Shown in pieces: positions 7,977 to 64,000 of a stretch of 64,000 bases of DNA. Below the pieces are notes generated by a model, which was not told the DNA's origin, made no database searches, and saw only the letters and a program-made list of their open reading frames with translations. Where the stretch lies: contig CAMRHE010000021.1 in the NCBI GenBank assembly GCA_947044405.1, positions 11,268,501 to 11,332,500 of the forward strand. The letters run 5' to 3'. Source of the DNA: Leptodactylus fallax. Its lineage: Eukaryota; Chordata; Amphibia; Anura; Leptodactylidae. The position numbers were made by a program, and so were the translations under genes. How positions within the stretch are numbered: position 1 is the first letter of the stretch; each line of letters begins with the position of its first letter.

Positions 7977-8065
7977 TATTTATTAGCAGAAGGACCCGGT
8001 TTCGCACAGGTATATTTCATTTTTTGTTTGTGTTGTGACCCCATAAGAATTGGCCAGTTTTGCAC

Positions 8066-10449: not shown

Positions 10450-11548
10450 TCTCTCAGGGGCTCTGTAAAAACCAAACCACGGTCAGGTAGACCAACCAAA
10501 ATTTCGGCCACACTGCCCGGAAAATTGTTCGGGATGCAAAGAAAAACCCAAACATAACATCAGCTGAAATACAGGACTCTCTGAAAACTATCGGTGTGGC
10601 TGTTTCAAGATGCACAATAAGGAGGCACTTGAAGAAAAATGGGCTGCATGGTCGATTTGCCAGAAGAAATCCATTACTGCGCAAATGCCACAAAGAATCT
10701 AGCCTTCAATATGCCAAACACCACAGAAACAAGCCTCAAAACTTCTGGAACAAGGTAATTTGGAGTGATGAGACAAAAATCAAACTTTTTGGCCACAATC
10801 ATAAACGTTACATTTGGATAGGTTTGAACAAGGCCTATGATGAAAGGAACACCATTCCTACTGTAAAGCACGGAGGTGGATCACTGATGATGTGGGGATG
10901 TATGAACTTCAAAGGCACAGGAACCTTGGTCAAAGTTGAAGGAAAGATGAATGCAGCACGTTATCAGCAAACACTGGAGGCAAATTTGCACTCATCAGCC
11001 AGGAAGCTGCGCATGAGATGTACTTGGACGTTCCAACATGACAACGACCCAAAACACAAGGCCAAGTCGACCTGTCATTGGCTACAGCAGAAGAAAGTGA
11101 AGGTTCTGGAGTGGCCATCTCAGTCTCCTGACCTCAATATCATTGAGCCACTCTGGGGAGATCTCAAGCGCACAGTACATGCAAGACAGCCCAGGAATTT
11201 ACAGGAACTGGAGACTTTTTGCCAAGAAGAATGGGCAGTTTTACCATCTGAGAAAATAAAGACCCTCATCCACAACTACAACAAAAGACTTCAAGCTGTC
11301 ATTGATGTTAGAGGGGACAATACACGGTATTAAGAACTGGGGTATTATGAACTTTTGACCAGGGTCATTTTTATGTTTTTGGTTGTCATTATGATTTAGA
11401 AAGAGAAAACACAGAAGTTTGATAATAAATGGCTTCAACCAACCACTAACCATGAGTGGAGAAAAAGTTTTTGTGTTATCATTCATATTCTCTGAAAAAA
11501 GGCCAAAAAAACAAAAAATCTGCCAGGGTATGTAAACTTTTTAGCACA
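10450..11548 (+). mobile_element. Tc1-family transposon, 5'-truncated (second family)
   Basis: It retains the transposase and a right inverted end (GTATGTAAACTTTTTAGCAC, then AACTGTA). I found no matching left inverted repeat: similarity starts abruptly inside the DNA-binding region near 10465. It is a truncated insertion distinct from the CAGTGGGG and CAGTGGCTTGC families. Confidence 0.85.
10465..11333 (+). pseudogene. Tc1 transposase, N-terminally truncated
   Basis: The first piece (KPRSGRPTKISATLPG) is the GRPR-like hook between the two helix-turn-helix parts. A one-base shift near 10522 then moves to the frame that stays open to the stop at 11333. That frame holds KIVRDAKKNP, VSRCTIRRHLKKNGLHGR (paired-like HTH), WSDETKIKLFG, HDNDPKHKAK and SPDLNIIEPLW, giving all three catalytic acidic residues with DD34E spacing. 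It ends DVRGDNTRY. The catalytic domain is intact by eye, but the first HTH is missing, so the product would not bind DNA properly. Confidence 0.88.
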
Positions 11549-15786: not shown

Positions 15787-17395
15787 TAGTGGCTTGCAAA
15801 AATATTCATACCCCTTGAACTTTTTCACATTTTGTCACCTTACAATCACAAACTTAAATGTATTTTATTAAGATTTTAAGTGATAGATCAACACAAAGTA
15901 GCAGATAATTGTGAGGTGGAAGGAAAATGATACATGGTTTTCAAAACTGTAATCAAATAAAAATCTGAAAAGTGTGACGTGCAAAAGTATTCAGCCCCCC
16001 TATATCAATACTTTGTAGAGCCACCTTTAGCTGCAATTATAGCTACAAGTCTTTTGGGGTATGTCTCTACCAGCTTTGCACATCTAGAGACTGAGATTTT
16101 TGCCCATTCTTCTTTGCAAAATAGCTCAAGCTCAGCCAGATTGGATGGAGAGCGTCTGTGAACAGCAATTTTTCTTGTCTTGCCACAGATGCTCAATGGG
16201 ATTTAGGTCTGGACTTTGACTGGGCCATTCTAACACATGAATATTCTTTGATCTAAACCATTCCACTGTAACTCTGGCTGTATGTTTAGGGTCATTGTCT
16301 TGCTGTAATCTCCTTCCAAGTCTCAAGTCTTTTGCAGCCTCCAACAGGTTTTCTTCCAGGATAGCCCTGTATTTAGCTCCATCCATCTTCCCATCAACTC
16401 TGAGCAGCTTCCCTGTCCGTGCTGAAGAAAAGCATCCCCACAGCACGATGCTGCCACCACCATGTTTCACAGTGGGGATGGTGTGTTCAGGGTGATGAGC
16501 AGTGTTACTTTTCCACCACACACAGTGCTTTACATTTAGGCCAAAAAGTTCAACTTTAGTCTCATCTGACCAGAGAACCTTCTTCCACATGTTTGCTGTG
16601 TCCCCTATATGGCTTGTGGCAAACTGGAAACGGTACTTCTTAGGTTTTTCTTTCAGCAATGGTTTTCTTCTTGCCACTCTACCATAAAGACCAGATTTGT
16701 GGAGTGCATGACTTATAGTTGTCTTGTGAACAGATTCTCCCACCTGAGCTGTGGATTTCTGCAGCTCCTCCACAGTGACCATGGGCCTCTTGGCTGCTTC
16801 TCTGACCAGTGCTCTCCTTGCTCAATCTGTTAGTTTAGGTGGACGGCCATGTCTTGGTAGGTTTGCAGTTGTAGAATACTTTTTCCATTTTTGGATGATG
16901 GATTGAACAGCGCTCCTTGGGATGCTCAAAGCTTGGGGTATGTTTTTATAACCTAACCCTGCTTTAAACTTCTTCACAACTTTATCTCTGACCTGTCTGG
17001 TGAGTTCCTTGGTCTTCACTCTGTTTGTTCACTAGTGTTCTCTAACAAACCACTGAGGCCTTCACAGAACAGATGGATTTATATTGAGACTAAATTACAC
17101 ACATCTGGACTCCATTAACTTATTAAGTGACTTCTGAAGGCAATTGATTGCCCTGGATTTTATTTAGGGGTATCCAAGTACAGGGGACTGAATTCTTTTG
17201 CATGTCACACTTTTCAGATTTTTATTTGATTAAAATTTTGAAAACCATTTATAATTTTCGTTCCACTTCACAATTATGTGCTTCTTTGTGTTGGTCTATC
17301 ACTTAAAATCTCAATAAAATACATCTAAGTTTGTGCTTGTAAGGTAACAAAATGTGAAAAGGTTCAAGGGGTATGAATACTTTTGCAAGCCACTG
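15787..17395 (-). mobile_element. Tc1-family DNA transposon, copy 3 (CAGTGGCTTGC family)
   Basis: The inverted ends are (T)AGTGGCTTGCAAAAATATTC on the left and GAATACTTTTGCAAGCCACTG on the right, extending inward through CCCCTTGAACTTTTTCACAT. A full-length but broken transposase lies between them on the minus strand. A fragment of the same family is at 35357-36001. Confidence 0.9.
16005..17019 (-). pseudogene. Tc1 transposase pseudogene, copy 3
   Basis: It starts MKTKELTRQVRDKVVKKFKA (first HTH, with IPRSAVQSIIQKWKKY) and runs to an in-frame TGA at 16822, replacing an Arg codon. It resumes with the second HTH ([20 protein letters not shown]) and the catalytic domain ([28 protein letters not shown]). 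A small in-frame deletion removes residues before DNDPKH, and the usual His is Gln. A frameshift near 16180 separates the C-terminus (63 codons, ending GGSTKY). It is inactive. Confidence 0.88.
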
Positions 17396-34922: not shown

Positions 34923-35356
34923 GGGAGTTTTTTCCAGCCCCAGTGTAATAGAAAATAAGCACGGAAAAACACCATCCACAACACAGCCTCCAGGCACAAC
35001 AGAGTTCTGTCCATAGGATTTTCCTGAGGCAGGATCCCAAGAGCAGCTATATTGTAGGGGAGACGTGACGCTGACACACAGAAGAAGTGGAAAGTCCTAG
35101 GATTGGTGAATGCTGAGAATCGTACTTACTGTTCACTTTCTGGGCCCCGTCGGTAACCAATGGAAACACTCATTGATTACCAGTCCACTCTTCCCCTGAA
35201 GCATCATTCACAAGAGTAGTGGCTGCCTAGATTCAGCAAGAGGTGCGGTTTTAAATGTAAAACTGCCCCCATGTGTACACCCCTGATTGCACCACTTCCT
35301 ACCCAGAATGCACCAGAGGAAGAAATAGCACAATGACTGAGCAGTGGCAGTTAAAC
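34923..35356. other. intronic stretch without a recognised gene
   Basis: Mixed-composition sequence between a foldback repeat and a Tc1 fragment. No motif is recognised. Confidence 0.45.
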
Positions 35357-36001
35357 TCGCTGCAATTACAGCTGAAAGTCTTTTGGGGTATGTCTCTACC
35401 AGCTTTGCACAGCTAGAGACTGAGATTTTTGCCCATTCTTCTTTGCAAAATAGCTCAAGCTCAGCCAGATTGGATGGAGAATGTCTGTGAACAGCAATTT
35501 TCATGTCTTGCCACAAATGCTCAATGGAATTTAGGTCTGGACTTTGACTGGGCCATTCTAACACATGAATATTTTTTGATCTAAACCATTCCACTGTAGC
35601 TCTGGCTGTATGTGTAGAGTCATTGTCATGCTGGAAGGTGAATCTCCTTCCCAATCTCAAGTCTTTTGCAGCCTTCAACAGGTTTTCTTCCAGGATTGCC
35701 CTGTATTTAGCTCCAACCATCTTCCCATCAACTCTGACCAGCTTCCCTGTCCCTGCTGAAAAAAACATCCCCACAGCATGATGCTGCCACCACCATGTTT
35801 CACAGTGGGGATGGTGTTTTCAAAGTGATGAGCAGTGTTACTTTTCTGCCACACATAGCGCTTTGCATTTAGGCCAAAAAGTTCAACTTTAGTCTCATCT
35901 GACCAGAGCAACTTCTTCCACATGTTTGCTGTGTTCCCTATATCACTTGTGGCAAAATGCAAATGGCACTTCTTACATCTTTCTTTCAACAATGGTTTTC
36001 A
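35357..36001 (-). pseudogene. Tc1 transposase fragment (same family as 15787-17395)
   Basis: 645 bp collinear with the catalytic half of the 15.8-kb copy and very similar to it. It lacks both inverted ends and the first half of the gene. Open pieces encode [47 protein letters not shown] and SPDLNSIEHLW. The NDPKH motif has become NDSTH. A frameshift near 35760 separates two pieces. Both boundaries are abrupt, at GCTGCAATTACAGC and CAATGGTTTTC. Confidence 0.85.
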
Positions 36002-36828: not shown

Positions 36829-37166
36829 ATAAAATAAAAGTGGCTTTTATTCAGCTTAAACTGCAACGTAACAAAACAATAAACGCCTAGGACACAGTTA
36901 GGGCACTAACTAACACCTCGAGCCCCTAACTAGCCTCTTGTTCACTTGAGCAGCCAGACTAATGCTCCACTCAGCAAAAGTCCCCTGTGGCCCCAGCCCC
37001 TCTGGCACAGACCGTCTATCTGTCCAACTGGTCCACCATTTCCTGCTCTGTGCAGGATACTCCAGTCCTCTGGAGTTACATGCCACCCCCTCAAATGTGT
37101 GGCTGAAGGCCTTTTCAGGGCTGGGCCTGGGTCGCTCAACAGCGCCCTCTGGCTCACATACCTACA
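36829..37166 (-). repeat. 3' LTR (U3-R part) of the gene-capture element
   Basis: On the minus strand it starts TGTAGGTATG right after the polypurine tract. It contains the AATAAA signal about 19 bases before the point where the two LTRs stop matching. The 5' LTR continues differently from that point, so this LTR lacks the U5 seen there or was joined to other sequence. Confidence 0.85.
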
Positions 37167-37184
37167 ATACCCTCCCCCTCAGCT
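37167..37184 (-). promoter_or_regulatory. polypurine tract (plus-strand primer site)
   Basis: The minus strand reads GTGAGCTGAGGGGGAGGGTA immediately upstream of TGTAGG. This is the expected position and composition for the primer of second-strand synthesis in LTR elements. The tract is also read in frame by the long ORF. Confidence 0.8.
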
Positions 37185-37329
37185 CACTACCCATAGGGTA
37201 AGTTACAATGGGACAAGACATATGTCGCCGTCCCTCTTCAATGCTATACACTTGTCCAGTGTCTCTCCAGATGTCCCCATCTGGCGGTCTCAACCTCCAA
37301 GTTCCAGTCAGTCGAGCCTTCCGTCTTCT

Positions 37330-37893
37330 CACTTTAAACGCTATGCCAAGATCCTGGCCATTCTGCGCAAAGGCAAGCTCTACTCCATCACCTCCACAAT
37401 TCGCCACACAGGGAATCACATCATTTTCATCACATTTTCCATCATAGTCTTCAGCCATCCCATTGTATGACTTTGATCCCTTTAGTGAATAGCCGTAAGA
37501 ATCTTCATCTTCACCTATCACGAATCCACAGGAGCTCAGAGACCAACTAACACGTACTTCATGCACTTCAATGTCTTTAGAGTATAAATGTTTCACGGGT
37601 ACCTTTTCTGTAACCTTTATCTCAAAGCAAACTTTGCCATTCGAGACACCATATGAGGCTCTTCCACCTGCCCACAGGAAGGCAAAACTCTCCATGGTGA
37701 GAGAAGTGGCGCTCAGACGATCCCGTGGCATTTTGAAGTGAAGATCACAATTATAAGTGTCGAGAAGAACATTAGTTTCATCCATTTTTTCATCTTCCTC
37801 TTCCACCGGTGGCTGTGGGGACTTAGACCTGTTGTATTTGTTTTCTTCAATACACTCGAAGTAGCCACGGCCATGATCTTCACGTGGTCTTTT
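37330..37893 (-). pseudogene. hnRNP U-like SPRY segment within the captured ORF
   Basis: The frame reads [114 protein letters not shown] and [17 protein letters not shown]. This matches the region before and through most of the SPRY domain of hnRNP U, closer to HNRNPU itself than to the UL1/UL2 paralogues from memory. hnRNP U is a nuclear RNA- and scaffold-binding protein. The SAP, NTPase-like and RGG parts are absent. The last SPRY strands are replaced by an unrelated tail ([19 protein letters not shown]). No introns are present, so the source was spliced RNA. Confidence 0.9.
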
Positions 37894-38359
37894 CACACCA
37901 CATTTCTTATCATTTTGATCTTTGCCATCACCATCAAGGCTTAGAAGTTTAGGAGACATAGGCCGCTTGCTCTCCCCTTTGTTTGAGATACACAAGCTCT
38001 GTACCACAATATCTTCTCCTTTTGCACAAGGGCCATACAGTACACCCTCACAAAATAGCTCACGCTGAACTACATTTTCTGGTATGTCTTTAACAACTGC
38101 CACATCATATATTGGAATGGTTTCTGTATAATGCGTCCGCACCTGTACGGCAGCCGGAGAACCACTTCCATACTCTAGTCTTATCTCCTCTCTCTCATAC
38201 ACACAACTTTCGGGAGGCATGTTACGATTCTGTGATAGATTGCAAGAATCTTCGTACCAACCCCTTTCTGACAGTACAGGAGCTGGTGACATCGTCATCT
38301 CAACATTCTCCAAGTTATTTTCATTCAATGTGCTAACACCGGAGGACTGGGATACCAAG

Positions 38360-39337
38360 TTTTCAACATCACAGTTTTTTTACTGTCAGTACCCGGATGC
38401 TTTTTGGTTACATGTTCTGGCTGCCTTAATGGCTCTGCTTTCTCTGCCTCTAAAACCTTCTGTAGCGCACAAATCTCTGATTCCAGTTCCGGAACTTTCT
38501 TCACTGCCACATTTTTCTGCACAGCCTCTATCTCAGTTTTTACTATTGCAACTTGCAGAACTTCCTCAATCTTCCTGACATCTTCTATGGCAGCAGATGT
38601 AGATGCCATCTCTTTATCCACTATGCCTCCTAATTCTAGGATATTCTGCAATGTTCTTCTAACATTTGTCAGGTCAGCATCCTGGATAATATTTTCTGCT
38701 TCCCCCACTGTTCCCTGAATTATATTGGATTGATCCTCCAACATCTTCTGATAAAGCTTCTGCTCATCTGCAGACTTTTTGTCAAGTCTTTCATTCAAGT
38801 CCCGTATCTCAGTGGCTCTCTTATCTTGCTCTTAGTTGAATAAAGACTCTATTTCTTGAATCACATTTTTCAGGGATAACAGCTCTGATTCTTTAGAGGT
38901 TAACAGGCTCTGCAGCGAGTCTCTCTCATCTTCTAGTGCTGCCAGCTTTGAAGATAGTGCAGATGCCAACTGTTCCGTATTGGATAAAGACTGCTGCAAT
39001 CGATCCAATTCTTCTTTTTTAGATTCCACTTCGGTTTTTAACTGTTCAATCTGAGAAGTGCGCTCTTCCAACTTTATTTCTGATTCACGCTTCACTTGAT
39101 CCATCTGAAACTCCAGCTGTTTCTTGATTTCCTCCTGCTTGTTCACTTGCACCTTTAATTTAGCAACAAGCATTTTTAGATCTACAATCTCAGCAGATAA
39201 ATTAGACAGGTTTCCTTCAAACTGAATCCTCATGTCTTCTGTCTGGAGGTCCAATTCTCTCTTGGCCTTTTCCAGCATCTCATAAGCATTAGCTTTGTTC
39301 TCATACAATATCTGCACAGATTCCAGGTTTTTCTCAA
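38360..39337 (-). pseudogene. second coiled-coil segment of the captured ORF, source unidentified
   Basis: Heptad-rich sequence ([55 protein letters not shown]) interrupted by TAA at 38834-38832. It is followed in the same frame by KLYQKMLEDQSNIIQGTVGE, AENIIQDADLTNVRRT and MASTSAAIEDVRKIEE. The EAENIIQDA block faintly recalls the clathrin-adaptor protein HIP1/HIP1R, but that is a weak impression. It could be a third captured gene or diverged linker. Confidence 0.6.
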
Positions 39338-40146
39338 CTTCATCCTTGGAGCTAACCAAATCCTCCATTTCAGTGCGCAGTTGCTTGTTGAACCTCTCTA
39401 ACTCGGCCTTCAATTCAAGGGTCTCTTCTAGGGAGCGAGCCAAGGCAAGAGCTATGGTCTCTTTTCCACGAGCCTCTGCTTCAGCACGTTCACGTTCTTC
39501 TGCATATCTAGCAGAAAGAGTCTTCTCTTCACCAAGCAGCTGATCAAACTTTTTCTGCTTCCTTTCCAAATTTGACACCATCCAACGTTGATGATCAAGA
39601 TCTACACCTATATCTTCTAGTTCCTGCTGCAGTCTAATTTTTGTTTTCTCAAGTTCGTCATAAGCCGCAACCTTTTCCTCAAACCGTTGATTTGTAGCTT
39701 CTAGCTCCTTTTGCAACTTTTCCTTTAGTTCTTCAACAGAGTCCAAGGACCCAATACTATCCTCCATTATTTTCCTTCATGTCAGTCGCCTGAGCCTGTA
39801 GTGTTAAAATCTGCTTTGTCAAATCTCGTTTTGCTATCTCCTCTTCCTCTAGTTGCTCAAGGAAACCATTTTTCTTATCTTCCATTTGTTTTAGTTTTGT
39901 ACTAAGGTCAAGCTTCTGACGGGTTTCTTCTTGCAAAAGTTCCTGAGTGTCCTGAAGCTGAGATTCTAGTGTAGACAACTCTTTGGAAAGTTTGATAAAC
40001 TTGTTGTCTGCTTGAGGCAGAAGCCCTGTGACATTATCCAATTCCACCTGTAGTCTGTTTGCCTTGTCTAGCAGCTCTGCTTGAAACCTGTCCCCTTCTG
40101 TGACTTTTAGTTGCAGCTCTTGAAGTTGAGTCTCTACTTCTTTGTG
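39338..40146 (-). pseudogene. class II myosin heavy chain rod segment within the captured ORF
   Basis: Landmarks include [120 protein letters not shown] and [17 protein letters not shown]. This is the MYH9/MYH10/MYH11 type of rod, continuous over what are several exons in the host genes. The frame shifts by one base at about 39770 inside the match. No head or IQ motif is present. The segment would form a dimeric coiled coil. Confidence 0.88.
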
Positions 40147-40149
40147 ACT

Positions 40150-41205
40150 CTCCTGTAAGGTTTGCACTTTCTGAGCATGGACAGATGACATCTCCATCAA
40201 TTCTTTGTCTTTATTTTGCACCAAAACAGACAATTTCTCATTATCTTCACAAGATCCTGAGAGCGCCCTCTCCAGGCTACATATTCTAGCTTTGAGTTCC
40301 CTTTCTCTTTGTTCCAGAACTCCAGCTCTGCTCCGCCATTCGTTGACTTCACTATTTAGGCGAACTTGCTTTAGTGCATGCAAGTTTTGCTCTGACTGCA
40401 ATGTCTGTACTACAGATTCTAAATCACTCTCTTGGTCAGAGACATGCTTCCTCAGCTCTGCAATTTCATTTTCTTTGTCAATTAATGCAGCCGAAAGTTT
40501 TTCACACCTCCTCACTTGGTCATCCAGACACTCTGACTGACACTGCAAAAATTCACTTCTCTCACGTTTAGCAGTTTCAAGGTCATCTCTTAATTTTTCA
40601 ATGATACACTCTTTGGCACTGGAGTCTTGGACATGCTGCTCCTTTAAATCCTGCAATTGCTTCTCAAGCACTTGCTTTTGCTCTACACTCTGTACAACTT
40701 TATTAGCTAGAGCACATTTCATAACAGCAAACTCCTTCTTAGTGACACAGTCCATTCCAGGCAAACCCAGTACTACATTTTCACAATGACTAGGATATGA
40801 ACTCTTTACAGTTTCAAGCTCTTTCTTTAACTTAAGGTTCTCTTTTTCTGATACCTCAAGTTGCCATTTCCAATCAGATATTTCATCTTCATAAATGAAC
40901 CTGATGCTTTTAATCTCATCTTGAAGCTGCTGCACCATAATATTTTCATCTTTGGCGCTCTGATGCACTCCAGTATGAGACATAGTCATAGTCATAGACA
41001 TACAGTCAGCAGTGACATATTCATTCATAGAACAGAGTTGCTTTAGAAAAACTGAGTCACTCTCATGCAACACATTATCTTTACTTGCATTCTACATGCT
41101 CTGTTCCAGGTTTTGTATCTCTCTGCATTCAGACTGCTGCACTAATAAACCTGTGCATGACTTCTCTGCTTTTTTACAAGCTGAAATTCTCTTTTTCTTG
41201 CCCAT
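40150..41205 (-). pseudogene. N-terminal coiled-coil segment of the captured ORF, source unidentified
   Basis: It begins MGKKKRISACKKAEKSCTGL and has an in-frame TAG at 41094-41092 shortly after the start. It then continues with IMVQQLQDEIKSIRFIYEDE, ISDWKWQLEVSEKENLKLKK, EKQLQDLKEQHV, RCEKLSAALIDKENEIAELR and QRERELKARICSLERALSGS. It is rich in E, K, L and Q with heptads. I do not recognise the source protein. It leads straight into the myosin match. Confidence 0.65.
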
Positions 41206-41699
41206 GGTTTACTAACAAGATAACACAGTATTCCAAAGCAACCTTGGGTTCAACCGACAGCAACTTTTTGCTATCTTCTGCAGTCACATGTATTCAAACA
41301 GTTAACTTATGTGGCACTACAACAACCAGCATTTTCTTCTGTCTTCCACAGAAAACACCAACATGGCACCATAGCCTTTTGCATAGACTGTTTGCAATAT
41401 CCAGCTTCTATACACATTGCTCACTTTCTTGCCATCAGCAAACACTTCACAGACTTCTGTGCCACAGTATACACAAAGTCCATTCCCTGGATTCCTCTTC
41501 CAGAGTTTTACTTTCACCAGGTTTTACAAACACCTTGCTATGTTGCAATTCACTCACCCCCCTCCTGGGTTTCTTCAGTTGAAATCACAGATTTCTTCCA
41601 GCTGTAGGCCACAATGCACACTTTGCAGTACTGCAATCACAAACCACTTGTCTTCCAGGACTTGTGTGGATCTCTTTATGCGCGCGATTCTCCACCATA
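41206..41699 (-). other. leader of the gene-capture element with candidate splice signals
   Basis: On the minus strand the segment after the 5' LTR opens TATGGTGGAGAATCGCGCGC, in the position of a primer-binding site. It contains a consensus donor GGTGAGTG at 41558-41551 and a candidate acceptor TTATCTTGTTAG (AG at 41213-41212) seven bases before the ORF's ATG. A 66-codon frame at 41517-41317 contains LCVYCG, which could be a relic of a gag zinc knuckle, but the rest of the knuckle is absent. Confidence 0.45.
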
Positions 41700-42138
41700 T
41701 GTGACAACTTGGGGAATTAATCTCAAATGGCGGCTTTCCTGGTCCCGACAGCAGTGGTTCATGGTACTGGGCGCCAGAAAGATAGCATTCAGACGGTCCA
41801 AGCATAAAATAAAAGTGGCTTTTATTCAGCTTAAACTGCAACGTAACAAAACAATAAACGCCTAGGCCACAGTTAGGGCACTAACTAACACCTAGAGCCC
41901 CTAACTAGCCTCTGGTTCACTTGAGCAGCCAGACTAATGCTCCACTCAGCAAAAGTCCCCTGTGACCCCAGCCCCTCTGGCACAGACCGTCTATCTGTCC
42001 AACTGGTCCACCATTTCCTGCTCTGTGCAGGATACTCCAGTCCTCTGGAGTTACACGCCACCCCCTCAAATGAGTGGCTGAAGGCCTTTTCAGGGCTGGG
42101 CCTGGGTCGCTCAACAGCACACTCTGGCTCACATACCT

Positions 42139-42141
<3 letters not shown>
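41700..42141 (-). repeat. 5' LTR of the gene-capture element
   Basis: The shared 338 bp (41804-42141) starts TGTAGGTATG on the minus strand. After the AATAAA/TTTTATTTTAT block it continues with a U5-like part ending CCCAAGTTGTCACA at 41700, giving a TG...CA LTR of about 442 bp. An alternative end is just before TGGCGCCCAGTACC (about 41775), which resembles a lysine-tRNA primer site. Confidence 0.7.
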
Positions 42142-45025: not shown

Positions 45026-45356
45026 CCTAAAACAGAAAAAAAAAAAGCCAAAATCCTGTAAAAGCATACAAATGCAACTAAGAAATCCAAAAAAGGATGT
45101 ATTTTATGATATATTAAGACAAGTTAAGTACTCCAATCTATGGCACTGTTGTGTATTTTAGCTATCACTTGTACCAGTTTTCTGTCATAAGTTATATTAA
45201 GTCTGTTGGATCGAGGCATCTCTGCCGTGGCGTGTATTGAACTCTGCCCTGTCCTGCCCACTTTTTACAAAACTGGCATAAAATTGGCAAAAAGTTGTCA
45301 CTTTTTTATGCAAAAATGGCGTGTGCCAAAAATATAAACTGGCATACAAAGCATTA
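45026..45356. other. intronic stretch without a recognised gene
   Basis: AT-rich repeat-like sequence (TTTGGCATAAAATTGGC type). Nothing specific is recognised. Confidence 0.4.
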
Positions 45357-45727
45357 TACAGTGGGGGAAAAAAGTATTTAGTCAATTATTTTAGTATTGT
45401 ACAAGTTCTCCCACTTAAAAAGATGAGGCCGGCCTGTAATTGTTATCATAGGTAGACCTCAACTATGAGAGACAAAATGAGAAAACAAATCCAGAAAATC
45501 ACATTGGCTGATTTTTTAAGAATTTATTTGCAAATTATGGTGGAAAATAAGTATTTGGTCACCTACAAACAAGCAAGATTTCTGGCTCTCACAGACCTGC
45601 AACTTCTTCTTTAAGAGGCTCCTCTGTCCTCCACTCATTACCTGTAGTAATGGCACCTGTTTGACATTGTTATCAGTATAAAAGACACCTGTCCACAACC
45701 TCAAACAGTCACACTCCAAACTCCACT

Positions 45728-47357
<1,630 letters not shown>

Positions 47358-54078: not shown

Positions 54079-55645
54079 CAGTCATGGCCAAAAGTTTTGA
54101 GAATGACACAAATATTATATTTTCACATGATCTGCTGCCCTCTGGTTTTTATGTGTGTTTGTCAGATGTTTTTATCACATACAGAAATATAATTGCATTC
54201 ATATTATGAGTAACAGAAGCTTATATTGACAGTTAGAATGAGTTAATGCAGCAAGTCAATATTTGCAGTGTTGACCCTTCTTCTTCAGGACCTCTGCAAT
54301 TCTCCCTGGCATGCTCTCAATCAACTTCTGGACCAAATCCTGACTGATAGCAGTTCATTCTTGCAGAATCAATGCTTTAATTTTGTCTGAATTTATTGGT
54401 TTTTGTCTGTCCACCCGTCTCTTGATGATTGACCACAAGTTCTCAATGGGATTAAGATCTGGGGAGTTTCCAGGCCATGGACCCAAAATCTCTATGTTTT
54501 GTTCCCTGAGCCATTTAGTTATCACCTTTGCTTTCTGGCAAGGTGCTCCATCATGCTGGAAAAGGCATTGTTGAGCGCCAAACTGCTCTTGGACGGTTGG
54601 GAGAAGTTGCTCTTGGAGGACATTCTGGTACCATTCTTTATTCATGGCTGTGTTTTTAGGCAAGACTGTGAGAGAGCCGATTCCCTTGGCTGAGAAGCAA
54701 CCCCACACATGAATGGTTTCTGGATGCTTTACAGTTGGCATGAGACAAGACTGGTGGTAGCGCTCACCTCTTCTTCTCCGAATAAGCTGTTATCCAGATG
54801 TTCCAAACAATCGAAAAGGGGATTCATCAGAGAAAATGACTTTTCCCCAGTCCTCAGCAGTCCACTCCCTGTACCTTTTGCAGAATATCAGTCTGTCCCT
54901 GATGTTTTTTCTGGAGAGAAGTGGCTTCTTTGCTGCCCTCCTTGAGACCAGGCCTTGCTCCAAGAGTCTCCGCCTCACAGTGCGTGCAGATGCACTCACA
55001 CCTGCCTGCTGCCATTCCTCAGCAAGCTCTGCACTGCTGGTAGCCCGATCCCGCAGCTGAAAGACTTTTAAGAGACGGTCCTGCCGCTTGCTGGTCTTTC
55101 TTGGGCGCCCTGGAGCCTTTTTGGCACCAATGGAACCTCTCTCCTTGAAGTTCTTGATGATGCGATAGATTGTTGACTGAGGTGCAATCTTTCTAGCTGC
55201 AATACTCTTCCCAGTTAGGCCATTTTTGTGCAGTGCAATGATGACTGCACGTGTTTCTTTAGAGATAACCATGGTTAACAAAAGAGAAACAATGATGGCA
55301 AGCACCAGCCTCCTTTTAAAGTGTCCAGTGGTGTCATTCTTACTTAATCATGACAGATTGATCGCCAGCCCTGTCCTCATCAACACCCACACCTGTGTTA
55401 ATGGAGCAATCACTGAAACGATGTTAGGTGGTCCTTTTAAGGCAGGGCTGCAATGATGTTGAAATGTGTTTTGGGGGATAAAGTTCATTTTCTAGGCAAA
55501 TATTGACTTTGCAAGTAATTGCTGTTAAGCTGATCACTCTTAATAACATTCTGGAGTATATGCAAATTGCCATTAGAAAAACTGAAGCAGTAGACTTTGT
55601 AAAAATTAATATTTGTATCATTCTCAAAACTTTTGGCCATGACTG
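54079..55645 (-). mobile_element. Tc1-like transposon with CAGTCATGGCC ends (possible DD35E type)
   Basis: Inverted ends CAGTCATGGCCAAAAGTTTT and AAAACTTTTGGCCATGACTG are perfect over at least 20 bases and lie inside TA on both sides. The element is 1,567 bp, full length, with a minus-strand transposase carrying two nonsense changes. Confidence 0.92.
54264..55272 (-). pseudogene. Tc1-like transposase pseudogene (spacing DD35E by count)
   Basis: It starts MVISKETRAVIIALHKNGLT and has the first HTH (STIYRIIKNFKERGS), the GRPRKTSKRQD hook, a second HTH (SARTVRRRLLEQGLVSRR), FSDESPFRLFG, QHDGAPCQKAKV and [12 protein letters not shown]. Between the Asp of HDG and the Glu of IENLW I count 35 residues, one more than in the other copies here. 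Breaks are TAA at 54790-54792 and TGA at 54355-54357. The frame is otherwise continuous to KKKGQHCKY. It is only lightly damaged. Confidence 0.88.
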
Positions 55646-58272
55646 TATATAAGAAATAAAGTCCCAAATTCTGGATAGGAATGCTATATAAAGAAAGCTA
55701 GTATGAAATATATATTCTTGAATCTTGTAGGCACCAAAATTCTCTCTTGTAAGATTCTGATAATCTAATGTAAAACTGACAGACAGAGCCACCACCCCAT
55801 GAATATCTGAATGTTTACTAGTGATAGCAGTTTGGTATTGCCTGGTCAGCTCTGCCAGAGGTACATTGCATTAAAAAGGACTTGTCATCAGGTTTCAAAA
55901 GTCCAATGACATACATTATCTGATAAATGGATAGTTGAGGACCAGAACCACAGATAAACCAAATCCATAAATAAATGGAGTGTGGAAGAAAATCTGCGCT
56001 TACTAGGATGTCGTAGGAGAGTCCTTTATTATTACCAGAAGGCACAACGCATTTCAGAGTGATAAATTACTCCTTTTTCAAGTGCATAAATTGGTGCATA
56101 CAAACCATGGCTAAAAATGCCAAGTTTAAATAGCAAAGACAAAAAATAGACACTCCCAGTGGGAGTGTTCTCACCATACAGCAACAACAAGCAAAATGTA
56201 TATTAAAAATAAATTTTGTTCAGGTTCAGTGAGTAAGATAAAATGAGAGCAACATTATTAAAAAGATACATGATATTGTAAGAATAAAAGCAAGATTTCA
56301 GTAAAAATACCATGTAGGGCGTCCACGTGTTACAAATTGTGCATGTCTAGTTAAAAACCGCCAAGGGAAGCCTCTAATAGGCTGACTATACTACACTAGG
56401 TGCTGCGCTGTGCTGTATTTTTGTATTTTTTGATTGGCACATACATCATCTGAGCAATTTTCTTTCTTGTATATCCAAATCCATTCAACCATTCCAAAGA
56501 TTTAAACCCTGGTAGTGTTTATGCAAATGAGGGTCTTTTAGCCAAGTGGGTGTTAACACTGAGTGACATACAATGTTACTGCCAACTTGACCAATAGACC
56601 CTCATTTCTATAAAAACTAACCGGACTTATATCTGAAGGGATTTGTATAAACAAAACACCAAAATTCTTAAGCGTTTATCAAATGAGTTATGTCATTGGG
56701 CTTTTAGACCTTCTTTAAAAAGTGTCTATTGCATCCTCTATGTTTTGAGTAAAGTAGGTATCACCATCATGATATGTCGGATTCTTTCCTGTTAGAGAAG
56801 TAGACTATATAACTCTCTGTTGCACAATGTTGTGCTGGTTGACTCATTGAAAAAGTTGACAGGGGGCCTGGATGCTGATCTTGAAAGTTAGTGTTACAAG
56901 TTATAGTTCTGAATATGGGATGTTAAACCAGGGATTTATTCTGATTGCCATATTTGGAGTTGGGAAACAATTTTTAATATGGGCAATTGCCATCCACTTC
57001 ATTGGTTTTATTTTGCCTTCCTCTAGATCAGCATGGAAGAAATAGGTTGTACTTGATGGACCTTTAAATTTTTTCATTCTTATCAGCTCTATGTAAAAAC
57101 ATGTAACCCTCCCTGCATGAGTTGTACTTCATTCCTGACCCTGTATTCATCTGAAAACATTATTCCTCAAATTGAGGGTGATGAAATGTTCATCGTCAAT
57201 AGTTTTATTGACTCCGTTTATGATCTGAACAGACAATATTAGTGGCATATAACTGAATGTGATGTAGTGGACAAACTACACAAATTTCTGTAGTCTGGAG
57301 GGAAGTATGCTATGCTTAGTAATGATAGATACATTTAATTTTAACTTCATGAAAAACATGGTCTCTGAGTCTGTGGAATGTATTGAAATCTCACAAGAGC
57401 TAATTTACAGATTGGGCAAAAACATTAATTGACAGCTATACAGACTCATCATAATGTTTCTCTGTGAAGTAGTTTTTTCTGTGATAAATTAAAGCAATAG
57501 AAATCAAAATTTCTATAAAGATTGCACTTCAGTGCTGGAACAGAGCAAAGTAAACATCATATATTTGTTATATAATAAATTGTCATTACACCATGTGGAG
57601 TGATTTATCTAGATCTCCTAAGAGATATAACACTCGCAACTCAAGAACTTTTATGGAGAGAAACAATAAAAAATCTCTTTTGAACATAAAATTGATTCTT
57701 ACTGCTCTTAATGTAAAAAAAAAAACCTGCTGCTTAATGCTTAGAGTGTGCATATTAGCCTACTGCTGAATGGATCTTTATTATTGGCCCACACAGAATG
57801 GAAATAATTTATTTTCCAGAAAAAAGAACATTAAATTGTTGCCACAAATTTGTGACAGTAATCTAGAATCACCAGGGAATTTATTCAACCTTGCAATTAG
57901 GCCTGCAAGCTCTAACTGGCTTCTTGTTCTTTTTCACAGATTAATTTTATTGAAATTCACGATCTAGTGATTTTTGTGCTATACTTAAAGGGGGAACTAT
58001 CATTAAATGCCATTAAAATGTCTGCATAAAATTAATCACAATGGCACTTTTATATTTGTTTGCAAAGATATAAACCACCAATTATTAAGAAGGCTTTCTA
58101 TCCAAAAGATTAAATTGGCAACATATTAGTAAATCAGAAGTTAGAGCAGTAGCCAATGTTTGGCAGTTATTATGCTGTATATACTTACAGAGGTATTTTA
58201 GATTTTAATATCAATAGTACATCAGTTATGGGGCCAATTTTTGTAAGAGGCACAACTGGAAGCTCTACGTAC
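55646..58272. other. intronic stretch with old repeat remains, no gene
   Basis: 56040-56095 holds a decayed hammerhead/Penelope-type block on the minus strand (AAAGGAGTAATTTATCAC, then TCTGAAATGCGTTG). The remaining 2 kb is AT-rich and comparatively unique. No exon is recognised. Confidence 0.5.
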
Positions 58273-58455
58273 TGTGAGTATGTGAACCAGAGGGCGCTAT
58301 TGAGCGACCCAGGCCCAGGCCAGAAAAGGCTCTCAGCCATGCCTTTGGGTGGGGGGGCGTTTCTCCAGAAGGCTGGTGTGAAAGATCCTCAGTGCGCCAA
58401 ACCGCTTTGGCTCCCACCTGAGTCCTCTTTCATATAAAACCACACTCACCGCCAG
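58273..58455 (+). repeat. LTR fragment related to the gene-capture element's LTR
   Basis: It starts TGTGAGTATGTGAACCAGAG and continues GCGCTATTGAGCGACCCAGG, CCCAGGCCAGAAAAGGC. This is collinear with the first 110 or so bases of the LTR at 42141 read on the minus strand (TGTAGGTATGTGAGCCAGAG ... TTGAGCGACCCAGGCCCAGC), at roughly three-quarters identity. A TATA-like CATATAAAACC is at 58430. It is cut off where the Gmr1 LTR begins. Confidence 0.65.
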
Positions 58456-58459
58456 TTAA

Positions 58460-59331
58460 TGTCGGGTTCACCAGATAAATACAAGACAAGCTTTCTAAAT
58501 TTTATATATTTATTAACCCCTAAATGGGTCGGTATTAACATCTAACATATACAGTTCAGAACAGATATGCAGATATATGCAAGCATTAACAGTTACTAGT
58601 TAGAAGATACAGTACAAATAAAATAAAAGGGATAAAGGTGAAATAGTTACTTTACCACACATGTCCTTGATGTGGTTCTATAGTCCAACACTCACCAATG
58701 GCATGTGTGAGTCACCAGTGGAGGCTTCTCAGCCTTAACTCCTAGCATGTGGCATCAATAGAATAATCCCGCCTGCATGCTTTTCACAGTCTCTCAGTAT
58801 TAGTCCAATAGTCTCATCACAAAAATCTCCTCATGGTGTTCGCTTGTAATCCCAACACAAATATCTTTTCAGGGTTAGTCTGTGATGGTCTGTCTGTAAC
58901 AACTCTGTATTCTGTGAGGGTCTCAGCCCAATCTTCATAGCATAATCTCCTCCCACAGACCTCTTACCTCATCTTTTATACCCTTTATGCCACCTCCCAG
59001 AATGAGGTCATCGGCAGCAGCAAGTCTGATTGAATAATGCAATCAAGTCCAGATTCTTTGTATATGGCTGATCCAAGTGAAAGGATACAATGTTATCAGG
59101 CAGGTCTGATCAACAGCCCAGGCTTGAACAATGCACTATTGTTTCTTTGATCACTCAGGGCTGTATAGGAGTACGATGGAGCCCTATTGTTCCAGTGTTG
59201 CCACTACTGCCAATATACACCTATGGTTATGGCGGCGTACCTTATGAGTAAATGGAACTAGAGAGAAATACGCTACCCAGAGACCAAAATACATTCCCGA
59301 GCCACAGCCACACTTAAGCAGAATCATCACA
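58460..59331 (-). repeat. 3' LTR of the Gmr1-type element (872 bp)
   Basis: On the minus strand it starts TGTGATGATTCTGC directly after the polypurine tract and ends GGTGAACCCGACA, giving TG...CA. An AATAAA lies in GGGTTAATAAATATAT close to the 3' end, and GGGTATAAAAGATGAGG (near 58978) is a good TATA box for the U3 promoter. Confidence 0.8.
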
Positions 59332-59345
59332 CCTCCCCCTTTAAA
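59332..59345 (-). promoter_or_regulatory. polypurine tract of the Gmr1-type element
   Basis: The minus strand reads TTTAAAGGGGGAGG immediately before the LTR's TGTGATG. Confidence 0.85.
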
Positions 59346-59796
59346 TGAGGCTTGTAGGAAGTAGGGGCCTGTGCCCCTCTTCTGAGAGCACCTCTGCCGC
59401 TTCACCGCGCTGGGATAGGCCGTCTGCATTGCCATGGGCCCGGCCGGGCTTGTGCCGAATGTCGAAATTGTATTGCTGGAGCACCAGGCTCCAGCGCAAC
59501 AATCACCCATTCTGACCTGCGATACGCTTTATCCAGATCAGAGGGTTGTGGTCCGTCACCACGGTGAAGTGGAGCCCATACAAGTAAGGCTGCAGATGCT
59601 GCAGGGCCCAAACAATTGCCAGGCATTCCTTCTCCACTGTGGCGTAGGCCACCTCCCGCGGCAGAAGCTTTCTACTGAGCTACTGCACTGGGTGCTCTTG
59701 CCCCGCGGAGTCAATCTGGCTCAGCACGGCACCGAGACCGTAGGTGCTGGCGTCGGTCTGTAATACAAGTGGACGAGATTCATCGTACGCTTGAAG
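59346..59796 (-). pseudogene. RNase H domain of the Gmr1-type element
   Basis: It begins LVLQTDASTYGLGAVLSQ (catalytic Asp in TDAS) and continues LSRKLLPREVAYATVEKECL, AIVWALQHLQPYLYG, VVTDHNPLIW and NFDIRHKPGRAHGNADGLS. Two in-frame stops break it: TAG at 59680 after HPVQ and a TGA at about 59510 after GQNG (Arg to stop, CpG-type). The domain degrades the RNA strand of the RNA/DNA hybrid during retrotransposition. Confidence 0.88.
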
Positions 59797-60018
59797 TACA
59801 GGACCGCTTGCCAGGGCTGCCTTCAGGGCCTGGAAGGAGTGCTCACAGGTATCCGTCCATTGGACGGTTTGCGGCAACTTCTTCTTGGTGAGGTCTGTCA
59901 GAGGAGCAGCAAGGGCACTATAGTTCGGGACGAACTTCCTGTAGTACCCTGCTGTGCCCAGGAAAGACATCACCTGTCGCTTGGTCCGTGGGGTTGGCCA
60001 TGTGGTGATTGCCTCCAG

Positions 60019-60726
60019 CTTCTCAGGCTCTGGCCTCAAGGTTCCCCCACCCACCCGGTGTCCCAGGTACTGGACCTCACGCATGCCCAGCTGACACTTC
60101 TCTGGTTTGATGGTCAAGCCCGCGTGGTGAACCCGCCTCAACACCTGCGCCAGGTGTTGTAGGTGTTCTTCCCAAGTGGAGCTAAAGACGGCAATATCAT
60201 CCAGGTATGCAGCTGCAAACCCTTCACATCCCGACAGCAGGGAATTGACCATCCTTTGAAAAGTGGCAGGGGCATTTTTCATGCCGAACGGCATGACAGT
60301 GAATTCATACAGTCCGAAGGGAGTGGTAAAGGCCGACCGTTCCCGTGCCTCTGGGGATAGGGGAATTTGGCAGTATACCCGGCTCAAGTCCATGATGGAC
60401 AAATACTGGGCCTTACCTAACGAGTCTAGTAAATCGTCGATGCGTGGCATGGGATACGCATCATCAACTGTAACCGCATTGAGCTCCCTGTAGTCCACAC
60501 AGAACCGGGTGGTCCGATCTTTTTTAGGTACCAGGACTACAGGCGAGGCCCATGCACTGTGGGATGGCTGAATCACCCCCATTTCCAACATCTCGCCGAT
60601 CTCCTTATGTATTTGGGCCCGTACTTCCGAGGAGACGCGATATGGCGGTCGCCGGATAGGGGCATGATTCCCGGTATCCACGTGGTGGATGGTCCGGTCA
60701 GTTCTCCCTGGCTTTCCGGAAAACAG
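60019..60726 (-). pseudogene. reverse transcriptase domain of the Gmr1-type element
   Basis: Motifs in order are HAPIRRPPYRVSSEVRA, VIQPSHSAWASPVVLVPKKD, RFCVDYRELNAVTVDDAYPM, LSIMDLSRVYCQIPLSP (catalytic Asp), FTTPFGLYEFTVMPFGMKNA, AAYLDDIAVFSS (YLDD box, 60196-60207) and KPEKCQLGMREVQYLGH. This domain is fully open. It lies downstream of, and in the same frame as, the integrase C-terminus. Confidence 0.93.
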
Positions 60727-60900
60727 ACCGGGGAGGGCACACCGAACACTGTTAAGTTGTGACCTTTGGGTCTCAGTCAGTAGGGGGTTTAACTGCGCTT
60801 CCTGGGGTGTCCTTCGCTCCCCCAACTGAGTGAGCATGTCCACAAGGTCCTCCTCTTCGCCCTCCTCTAGCAGACTACATACGGGAAAGGCAGTGGCTTC

Positions 60901-62104
60901 CCTGTCATGATAATCTTTCATCATGTTAACATGGAAGACCTTGTGCCTGTTCCGGCCTGGGTCAATGGTAACCAGGTAGTTGACGCAGTTGACCTGCCAG
61001 TGCACGACGTATGGACCAGACCATTTGGCCTGAAGCTTATCCTTAGGCTCAGGGACTAGGACCCATACCTTCTGTCCCGGCTGGTATATCCTCTCGCGAG
61101 CATTCTGATCATACCAGCGTTTCTGGTCGGTCTGAACCTGGACCATGTTGTCATGCACCAGCTGCGCCATCATCTGCATTCGGTCATGGAATCGCAGGAC
61201 ATACTCCACGACTGGCACACCCTGGATAGCGGCGTCTCCTTCCCAGGACTCCTTCACTAGAGCTAGGGGCCCACAGACACGTCTCCCATACAAGAGCTCG
61301 AAGGGGGAGAACCCAGTTGACTAACATCCGAAGCATCTGCTTCAGTGTGCCATTGAACCGTTCACACAGACCATTGGTCTGCGGGTGATACGGGCTGGAC
61401 ACCAGATGTTGCACCTCGGTTATCTTACACAGGCCTTGCATCAGGGCAGACATGAACTGGGTACCTTGGTCTGTGAGCATCTCTCTGGGAAACAGAACAT
61501 GGGAGAAGATGCCTACCAGAGCCTTGGCCACTACATCAGCCCGGGTAGAGGACAGTGCGACGGCTTCTGGTTATCGAGTAGCGTAGTCTACTACCATTAA
61601 GATGAAGCGTTTACTGGAGTGGCTGGGGATGGACAGGGGTCCAATAAGGTCCACAGCCACTCGCTGGAAAGGTTCGACTATGATGGGCATAGGCACCAGC
61701 GGAGCTTTGGAGCTTTGCCCCGCCTTGCCCATCCTTTGACACGTGTCACATGAACGGCAGTATCTAGCTACGTCCTTCCCCAGATTAGGCCAGTAGAATA
61801 AGTGGCTAAGGCGAGATTTGGTCTTGGCAATCCCTAAGTGACCGGCCAATGGAATGTCATGAGCGATCCGCAACAACTCTCTCCGGTAAGGTTGGGGTAC
61901 CACTAACTGTCTCTCATTTAGCTGACCTTCCTTCCCCTGGGTGGGTATCATTTCCCAATATAGCCTCCCTTGATCCCAGTAGACTCGGGCCTTGTCAGAC
62001 TCTGAGGGTGGTTGAGCGGCACGCTCCCTCAATATGGCCAGACTAGGGTCAGCTTGGACAGCTTCTCTGAACTCTTGGCTGGAGTGAGACAAAAAGAGGT
62101 GCAT
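60901..62104 (-). pseudogene. integrase domain of the Gmr1-type element
   Basis: It has an N-terminal zinc-binding HDIPLAGHLG ... YCRSCDTC (HHCC) and the first catalytic Asp in VAVDLIGPL. The second Asp is in MLTDQGTQF and the Glu in GLCERFNGTLK. A GPY/F module in AKWSGPYVVH sits near the C-terminus. Breaks: TAA at 61571-61573 after VVDYATR, and loss of roughly 25-30 codons with a frame change near 61315, between RMLVN and GFSPFELLYG. The start is in a different frame from protease. Confidence 0.9.
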
Positions 62105-62667
62105 GTTGCATAGCTGCCGGACCTTTCCGGCTCTAGGGTGGGGGAATTTCTCAAGGCGGTCTCAGTAATGCGTCCGAGCGACGGAGGGACCGGTGCAGAG
62201 GCTGGAAGGCTTTCCACCCCTTTGGCACTTTGACTGCGGGTAACCACCGCAATACCAGCAGTCCGTCCTACATCCGGACCGTCACTGAGAGCCCAGAGAG
62301 ACACCGAACCACCTGGTACAACATCCGCAGTTTCATGGCAGACATTTGCAATATCATTAACAGCATTCCTATCATCATTGGTTCTATCACACTGAGCTGG
62401 AGGGAGGACTGGCGGACATAGAGACACAGACTGGGGAGGTGAGGCCCCCGCAGATGTGGACGGGTCTACAGCCCAGTCCTCACTCAGCTCCTTTACACCT
62501 ACATTAATCCCAGATACATTAGAATTAGCATTTTCACAGAATGTATGAGGAGACATTTCAGAGGGAGGGTTACCAGCCCCCTCTGCAGGTATTCCCACAG
62601 GTACAATAAAATTAGCATCTTCACAAACTGTATGAGGAGACATTTCAGAGGGAGGGTGATTAGCCCC
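62105..62667 (-). pseudogene. spacer between protease and integrase, with an 87-bp duplication
   Basis: Low-complexity sequence rich in P, S and V, open in the gag-pro frame. A duplicated block reads PPSEMSPHTVCEDAN and PPSEMSPHTFCENAN, repeated at about 29 codons' distance (62525-62668). It has no known domain. Confidence 0.7.
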
Positions 62668-62964
62668 CGCTGCATATTGGCACACCATAGGCCCCAAATC
62701 TGTCCCCAACAGTACATTGGCAGGCAACTCAGACATCACTCCCACATCCCGCATTCCTTTCCCTGCACCCCAGTCTAAATGAACACAAGCCATGGGTACA
62801 GTAAAACGTTCCAATCCAATACCCCGTAGGGTCAGAGTTTTCCCGGGAATAATACTGTCTGGGGGGACCAAATCTGGTTGTACCAGCGTGACATCTGCCC
62901 CAGTGTCCCGGAATCCCATCACCACTTTGTCCCCCACAGTGACCTGCTGACGGTTAGCATTAAG
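62668..62964 (-). pseudogene. retropepsin-type protease domain of the Gmr1-type element
   Basis: FRDTGADVTLVQPDLV carries the DTGA active-site motif of an aspartic protease. GVMSELPANVLLGTDLG gives the C-terminal LLG(T)D turn. The domain is about 95 residues, normal for retroelement proteases, and is fused in frame to gag. It would cut the Gag-Pol polyprotein. Confidence 0.88.
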
Positions 62965-63048
62965 CTGGGGCCCCTCCCTCGCAACTAGATACACAGATGG
63001 GCCGGCCGCTGTAGTTTGGGGAGCAGGGGGGTTCCTAGGGTGGTTGGG

Positions 63049-64000
63049 GCAGTCTCGTTGAAAATGTCCCGTTTGATTACAGGCATGACACCGCCTGATC
63101 TCTCCCTGGGGTATGAGAGAGGTCGCCGGGGAGCTCAGAGCTCTAGGGGCAGGGGACGTATAGGAACCACCCGGGACAGAGTTTGGCCTACCCCACCTGG
63201 AAGCAGAGGGCTGTGGTGACCTCCAGCTTGGTTCAGGATTCCCTGGGACAGATTGTGTCTTACCCCTCCTCCAGCCGTCGCTGGCAGGTTTCCACGGCAA
63301 CTGGTTGGCAACATAACGATCCGCCATTGCTGCAGCTGTTTCAAGGTCCTTGGGCTCTCGGTCCAAGAGGTATTTTTGCACTTCCTCGGTACAAATGTTC
63401 AAGAACTGCTCTTGAAGCATGAGGTCTGCAAGGCTTTCTTGCGAGGTGACGGGCTTGCCCTCCGTCCACTCCCGGAACCACACGCGCAGCTGGGCCGCTG
63501 TATTCTCATGGCTCTCTGAAGGCTTTTTCTGCAGTCCTCGGAACCTTCGACGGTATAGCTCCGGCGTGAGTTGGTACCTCCGGATCAGCGCTGCTTTAAC
63601 AGACTCATAGTCCTGGTCAACTGGCAAATTGGCGTAAGTGTCCAGGGCTTTTCCCCTCAACCGGGGAGCCAGGTAACGGACCCAATCCGTCTGTGGTAGC
63701 TGATACTGCTTACACAATTTCTCAAAGGCCCGAAAGAACGAGTCCAAATCCCCGTTTGTTTCAAGGATTGGAAAGTCCTCGGATCAGAGCCTTGGTACTT
63801 GGGCTTCTGGAGTTTGTGCAGTGACAGACGGTGCCTGCTGGGAGAGCTCCATTCTTTTGAGCTCAAGCTGATACTGCCGCTCTCGTTCTGCAGCTTCACG
63901 ATCGGCCTGCCGTTCTGCTGCCTCACGATCGGCCTGCCGTTCTGCGGCCTGCCGTTCTCGTTCTGCAGCTTCACGATCGGCCTGCCGTTCTGCGGCCTGC
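63049..64000 (-). pseudogene. gag region of the Gmr1-type element (partial)
   Basis: It has a SCAN-like capsid helix region (FFRAFEKLCKQYQLPQTDWV, ALDTYANLPVDQDYESVKAA, NTAAQLRVWFREWTEGKPVT) and then a basic/proline-rich linker. A CCHC zinc knuckle, CHACNQTGHFQRDC, follows at 63049-63090. Upstream of an in-frame TGA near 63783, the same frame continues as a charged repeat of AERQADREA type to the window edge. Gag forms the particle that packages element RNA. Confidence 0.85.
63885..64000 (-). repeat. in-frame tandem repeat in the gag N-terminus
   Basis: Units of about 27-30 bp built on GATCGGCCTGCCGTTCTGC and GCCTCACGATCGG repeat at least four times and run off the window. On the minus strand in the gag frame they encode a charged, helix-forming A-E-R-Q-A-D-R-E repeat. 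Confidence 0.8.

Follow-up and report, generated by a model that had tools for sequence, protein, structure and literature searches.

A probable decayed LTR retroelement joining segments of three host genes in the frog Leptodactylus fallax

In a stretch of 64,000 nucleotides from the frog Leptodactylus fallax (Anura, Leptodactylidae; NCBI GenBank assembly GCA_947044405.1, contig CAMRHE010000021.1, positions 11,268,501 to 11,332,500 of the forward strand; hereafter the window), we analyzed the region between positions 36829 and 42141, for which an original prediction had proposed a long terminal repeat (LTR) element carrying messenger RNAs (mRNAs) captured from at least two host genes. With a probability of roughly 0.8, this region is a decayed non-autonomous LTR retroelement that took up spliced mRNAs of its host through template switching and was mobilized by helper enzymes. 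Both repeats, the tract of purines and the chain of host segments can be read directly from the DNA; template switching, helper supply and transcription are inferred. The proposed multi-gene chimera finds support with three named donors instead of two, in a broken instead of a single frame.

The two direct repeats of 338 bp that had been predicted (36829-37166 and 41804-42141) agree at 330 of their 338 bases (97.6%, with 8 differences), which gives the region the terminal-repeat organization of an LTR retroelement, and they enclose an internal region of about 4.6 kb. On the minus strand the repeat starts with TGTAGG, and the 5' LTR adjoins a (TA)n run. The polypurine tract was also found as predicted beside one repeat, 3 nt from the edge of the 3' LTR (37170-37180); purine runs of at least 11 nt with at least 7 G occur 11 times on the minus strand of the 64 kb, three of them within the element, and another one (59332-59342) precedes the apparent 3' LTR of a gypsy-type element. 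AATAAA, likewise claimed for both repeats, occurs in both at position 316 of 338 on the minus strand; as it can also be read from the plus strand of either repeat, this motif does not fix the orientation. A plus-strand orientation was first suggested by an LTR-like piece beside the gypsy-type LTR (58270-58379), with the shared end taken as the U5 end, and was rejected: on the plus strand, no purine tract stands in the 25 nt that precede position 41804, while the coding strand has one next to the other repeat. We infer that the element lies on the minus strand.

The internal region does not hold the single frame of about 1,350 codons that had been reported. Four open stretches without introns follow each other on the minus strand (444, 314, 168 and 405 codons, 1331 in total); one stop (38832-38834) separates the second from the third, both in the same frame, while the frame changes from the first to the second and from the third to the fourth, the last two overlapping at 38328-38379. 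The hybrid frame is thus not intact in this copy, being interrupted by one stop and two frame changes. A run of seven A (A7, 38375-38381) lies beside the overlap at the second frame change, which follows the HIP1R-like part described below. In 300 base shuffles of the coding path, stops numbered about 93 on average (minimum 72) vs. one in the real path, which places its coding character far beyond chance, and a long coding past of the internal region is certain. The Pfam scan detected no gag or pol family, the genes of an autonomous LTR retrotransposon or retrovirus, in the open stretches covered, which in the leader comprised the minus-strand pieces 41320-41523 and 41578-41760 and the plus-strand piece 41085-41579.

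Three donors could be named. The predicted segment of about 270 codons of myosin II rod is present, with the Pfam family Myosin_tail_1 continuing over the first and second stretches (profile positions 383-531, then 530-702) and human MYH9 as the best match in PDB (residues 1216-1371, E = 4.9e-40, then from residue 1373, E = 5.7e-52). In two ungapped blocks that together cover 270 residues, the element shares 194 identical residues with MYH9 and 173 with MYH10, compared with 192 between MYH9 and MYH10 themselves; these counts omit the first 32 columns of the first-stretch match, where similarity is weak, and everything past column 147 of the second-stretch match, which raises identity. The higher identity to MYH9, together with 36 residues shared with MYH9 only vs. 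15 with MYH10 only, favours an MYH9-type donor. What the original prediction had called more coiled coil is indeed coiled coil, and its missed identity is HIP1 or HIP1R: after the myosin part, the second stretch matches PF16515 (E = 2.5e-14) and PDB 2no2 (HIP1, E = 1.7e-4), and the third matches PDB 1r0d (HIP12, E = 2.6e-4), which we take to be HIP1R. A presumed HIP1R sequence is identical to the element at 49 of 101 and 21 of 31 positions, with a weaker part (19 of 52) in between; a placement of the presumed HIP1R C-terminus in the third stretch was rejected, its score of 40 standing vs. a shuffle maximum of 44. The predicted SPRY domain is likewise present (Pfam, E = 1.3e-6), and this segment is identical without gaps to a presumed human HNRNPU sequence at 142 of 192 residues (score 777 vs. 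a shuffle maximum of 50). Single-sequence structure prediction of the 405-codon piece was unusable (mean predicted local distance difference test score, pLDDT, of 31), and a text search of the literature for the hnRNP U peptides found no paper. Table 1 lists all features.

Table 1. Features of the element and its relative in the window, ordered along the coding strand
Feature	Position	Strand	Remarks
5' LTR (relative to coding strand)	41804-42141	-	97.6% identity to 36829-37166 over 338 bp
Leader	41092-41803	-	no Pfam family in pieces scanned
First open stretch	41091-39760	-	444 codons
Start of coding reading, coiled coil, donor not matched	40144-41091	-	first ATG at 41028
MYH9-like myosin II rod, ~270 codons across a frame change	39327-40143	-	Pfam Myosin_tail_1; PDB MYH9
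Second open stretch	39776-38835	-	314 codons
HIP1R/HIP1-like segment: clathrin-binding coiled coil, then start of C-terminal region	38547-39137	-	stop at 38832-38834 inside
Third open stretch	38831-38328	-	168 codons
Fourth open stretch	38379-37165	-	405 codons
Segment without matched donor, ~160 codons, after second frame change	37900-38379	-	no Pfam/PDB match
hnRNP U-like segment, most of SPRY domain	37324-37899	-	Pfam SPRY E = 1.3e-6
Polypurine tract beside 3' LTR	37170-37180	-	11-nt G-rich purine run (plus strand: pyrimidines), 3 nt from LTR edge
3' LTR, 3' edge maybe incomplete	36829-37166	-	AATAAA at minus-strand position 316/338, no TATA motif found
Diverged fragment of the TG end of the same LTR	58270-58379	+	81.7% over 104 bp; 79.5% over 112 bp

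Segments of three unrelated host genes (MYH9, HIP1 or HIP1R, and hnRNP U) therefore lie between the LTRs, all in sense, in one direction and without introns, as spliced host coding segments do in an element of the type of maize Bs1. Such sense-oriented, intronless joins fit template switching, which an excerpt of PMC5408686 describes as occurring between the RNA of an LTR element and packaged mRNA, in theory several times. The internal region would have been built by a retroelement reverse transcriptase switching repeatedly onto spliced mRNAs of MYH9, HIP1R or HIP1, HNRNPU and probably one or two other genes; the chimeric RNA, transcribed from the LTR, would have been packaged and copied by the proteins of a helper element and then integrated. 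We propose that such a helper supplied Gag and Pol, as the scan of the open stretches detected neither family. Ancestral copies probably maintained the fused frame as coding sequence, and the present one acquired the stop and the two frame changes later.

The coding history of the myosin part was compared with a neutral simulation that started from the element's own codons (277) and comprised 500 runs per identity setting. The real MYH9-like segment is free of stops. Stop-free outcomes numbered 4 among the runs at 72% identity, where stops averaged 4.9, and rose to 15 at 80% and to 67 at 90%. Unfavourable replacements relative to MYH9 made up 22 of 76 (0.29), equal to the lowest value of the 500 neutral runs at 72% (mean 0.47); between MYH9 and MYH10 they made up 21 of 78. 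Some of the replacement pattern resembles that of a protein evolving under constraint, though part of this evolution took place in the host gene before capture, and by what is a weak test the myosin part seems to have been coding sequence before the decay of this copy. The difference between the LTRs predicts about 2.2 stops in 1331 codons since insertion, with one or none in 34% of runs, so the single stop observed fits decay after insertion. It is very doubtful that the chimera functioned as a protein under selection in a vertebrate element family that was amplifying, in which the self-associating rods (myosin II and the HIP1R coiled coil) and the hnRNP U part would form a wholly host-derived substitute for a Gag-like assembly protein.

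Several observations weigh against the interpretation as an LTR retroelement with host-derived content. No TATA motif was found in the 338-bp repeat on the coding strand and AATAAA lies about 20 nt from the 3' edge of the repeat, so that the LTR looks incomplete or odd; with a polyadenylation signal this close to the end, the true LTR may extend further, with the 3' copy cut short. Target-site duplications of 4-6 bp were sought without a clear result, the (TA)n on one flank having no match on the other, and a duplication is unreadable where one flank is a TA run. No primer-binding site directly abuts the 5' LTR. What we take to be a transfer RNA (tRNA)-Lys-type primer site is matched over 9 nt from about 27 nt inside the LTR edge, at a non-canonical place, and a similar match to a presumed tRNA-Ala site lies about 100 nt inside that edge, again not flush, and both count for little. 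Two long segments have no specific donor match in Pfam or PDB, namely the first coiled coil of about 310 residues before the myosin, with only Pfam coiled-coil matches below the cut-off (e.g., Filament with 20.6 bits vs. a cut-off of 40) and two weak PDB matches (E of 0.22 and 7.1), and the segment of about 160 residues before the hnRNP U part, with no match in either database up to E = 10; the short stretches from myosin to HIP1R and after hnRNP U are likewise without an assigned donor. The hnRNP U assignment depends on a presumed sequence, and the PDB matches of the SPRY piece were DDX1 (E = 4.2e-7) and five ASH2L sequences, with no hnRNP U among them. Favourable replacements in the myosin part (32 of 76, 0.42) are inside the neutral range (mean 0.36, maximum 0.53) and add nothing to the case for selection; the test as a whole says little about selection inside the element, since evolution of the host gene accounts for some of the divergence from human MYH9, and the element's codons were the starting point of the simulation. 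Finally, with the element masked, searches of the window with its internal region (blastn with two pieces, tblastn with four protein pieces) detected no further copy.

Among the other explanations, a chimeric processed pseudogene, formed by template jumps between mRNAs of the kind made by long interspersed nuclear elements (LINEs) and later enclosed by two inserted LTRs of one family, is the one that survives best, and we consider it unlikely. Tripartite chimeric retrogenes made by LINE template jumps are described for a fungus in an excerpt of PMC2104539, and chimeras of LINE-1 with mRNAs for mammals in one of PMC13174262. In the element, the A7 run near the end of the HIP1R part would suit such an origin; it is the single run of at least seven A on the element's coding strand, which holds none of eight or more, and no long A tract stands at the joins. 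Two LTRs that are 97.6% alike would furthermore have had to insert in the same direction, one of them 3 nt from a polypurine tract.

The few stops and the few unfavourable replacements would also be expected of a host retrogene or a domesticated chimeric gene that was once functional, is now merely flanked by LTRs and has decayed here. This is improbable given that a polypurine tract adjoins the LTRs and that the frame is broken by one stop and two changes. An assembly artefact, with repeats or coding segments wrongly joined, is the least probable explanation. The single locus would speak for it; against it, the MYH9 and hnRNP U segments differ from the human proteins by 26-28% and the HIP1R segment by more, the frame is broken, unlike in contaminating complementary DNA, and the repeat has a diverged relative.

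Multi-gene capture by LTR elements is already known, and the element described here extends a known phenomenon. The original prediction had considered a multi-gene chimera undescribed and had cited Bs1 as the capture of a single gene; both statements are contradicted by an excerpt of PMC13317346, which reports three transductions from three different host genes in maize Bs1, and the former also by the avian retrovirus E26, for which part of PMC8061683 gives a product with MYB and ETS1 fused to a portion of gag, alongside avian erythroblastosis virus (AEV), which carries v-ErbA and v-ErbB. Bs1 resembles the present element in joining three host genes between LTRs and differs in its plant host, while here the donors are MYH9, HIP1R or HIP1, and HNRNPU. 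E26 and AEV are vertebrate LTR elements with two host genes, in E26 fused to part of gag, but they are chicken tumour viruses, whereas the present element is resident in the genome, has at least three other donors and shows no detected gag part. In crocodilians, according to passages of PMC4299795, CrocERV29 captured KIT-ligand and CrocERV31 nectin3, with purifying selection reported. These endogenous retroviruses (ERVs) likewise carry host mRNA in a vertebrate genome, and the identity of one nectin3 copy to the protein of its host, about 76%, is close to the 72-74% found here; they have one donor each, KIT-ligand being gained without loss of an ERV domain and nectin3 at the expense of env. 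LTR-mediated retroposition shares the template switching, and the figure legend in PMC5408686 shows the mRNA of one parental gene, compared with at least three here. In a literature search that covered few subscription papers, no paper on the combination of MYH9, HIP1R and HNRNPU in an LTR element was found, the single match treating a different subject to judge by its title, nor, among the matches listed, a vertebrate LTR element with three host genes, the nearest being the crocodilian ERVs as far as excerpted.

The region would be a natural case in which a vertebrate LTR element, itself with neither gag nor pol detected, assembled a protein from at least three host mRNAs, showing how LTR elements can stitch new proteins together. 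If dispersed copies with an intact frame exist, the family would permit a direct test of selection on the chimera and of its role for the element. In the window, the diverged LTR fragment at 58270-58379 is the one partial relative. Among viral contigs searched with the 314-codon piece, records of this genome perhaps being excluded, two stretches were pattern-matched and neither encodes a relative. Rfam and tRNA scans of the window gave no matches.

The diverged fragment belongs to an arrangement that appears nested or recombined (58270-59340), with a putative gypsy 3' LTR followed by a primer-like stretch, presumably of tRNA-Trp type, and then by the fragment related to the LTR of the chimera. 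Next to it, a Ty3/gypsy-type element on the minus strand (59340-64000) extends past the end of the window and encodes a SCAN-like gag, CCHC and an integrase zinc finger ahead of reverse transcriptase and RNase H, an order that we take to be Gmr1-like. About 200 Gmr1-like copies are given for the Silurana frog genome in part of PMC4131045. Open stretches resembling Tc1/mariner-type transposases lie at 6685-7194, 10596-11333, 16132-16782, 35208-35774, 45728-46234 and 54790-55305, three of them (10596, 35208 and 54790) examined with Pfam and the others judged by eye, and the regions 6601-7979 and 45356-46735 form a pair that is 94% identical in opposite directions.

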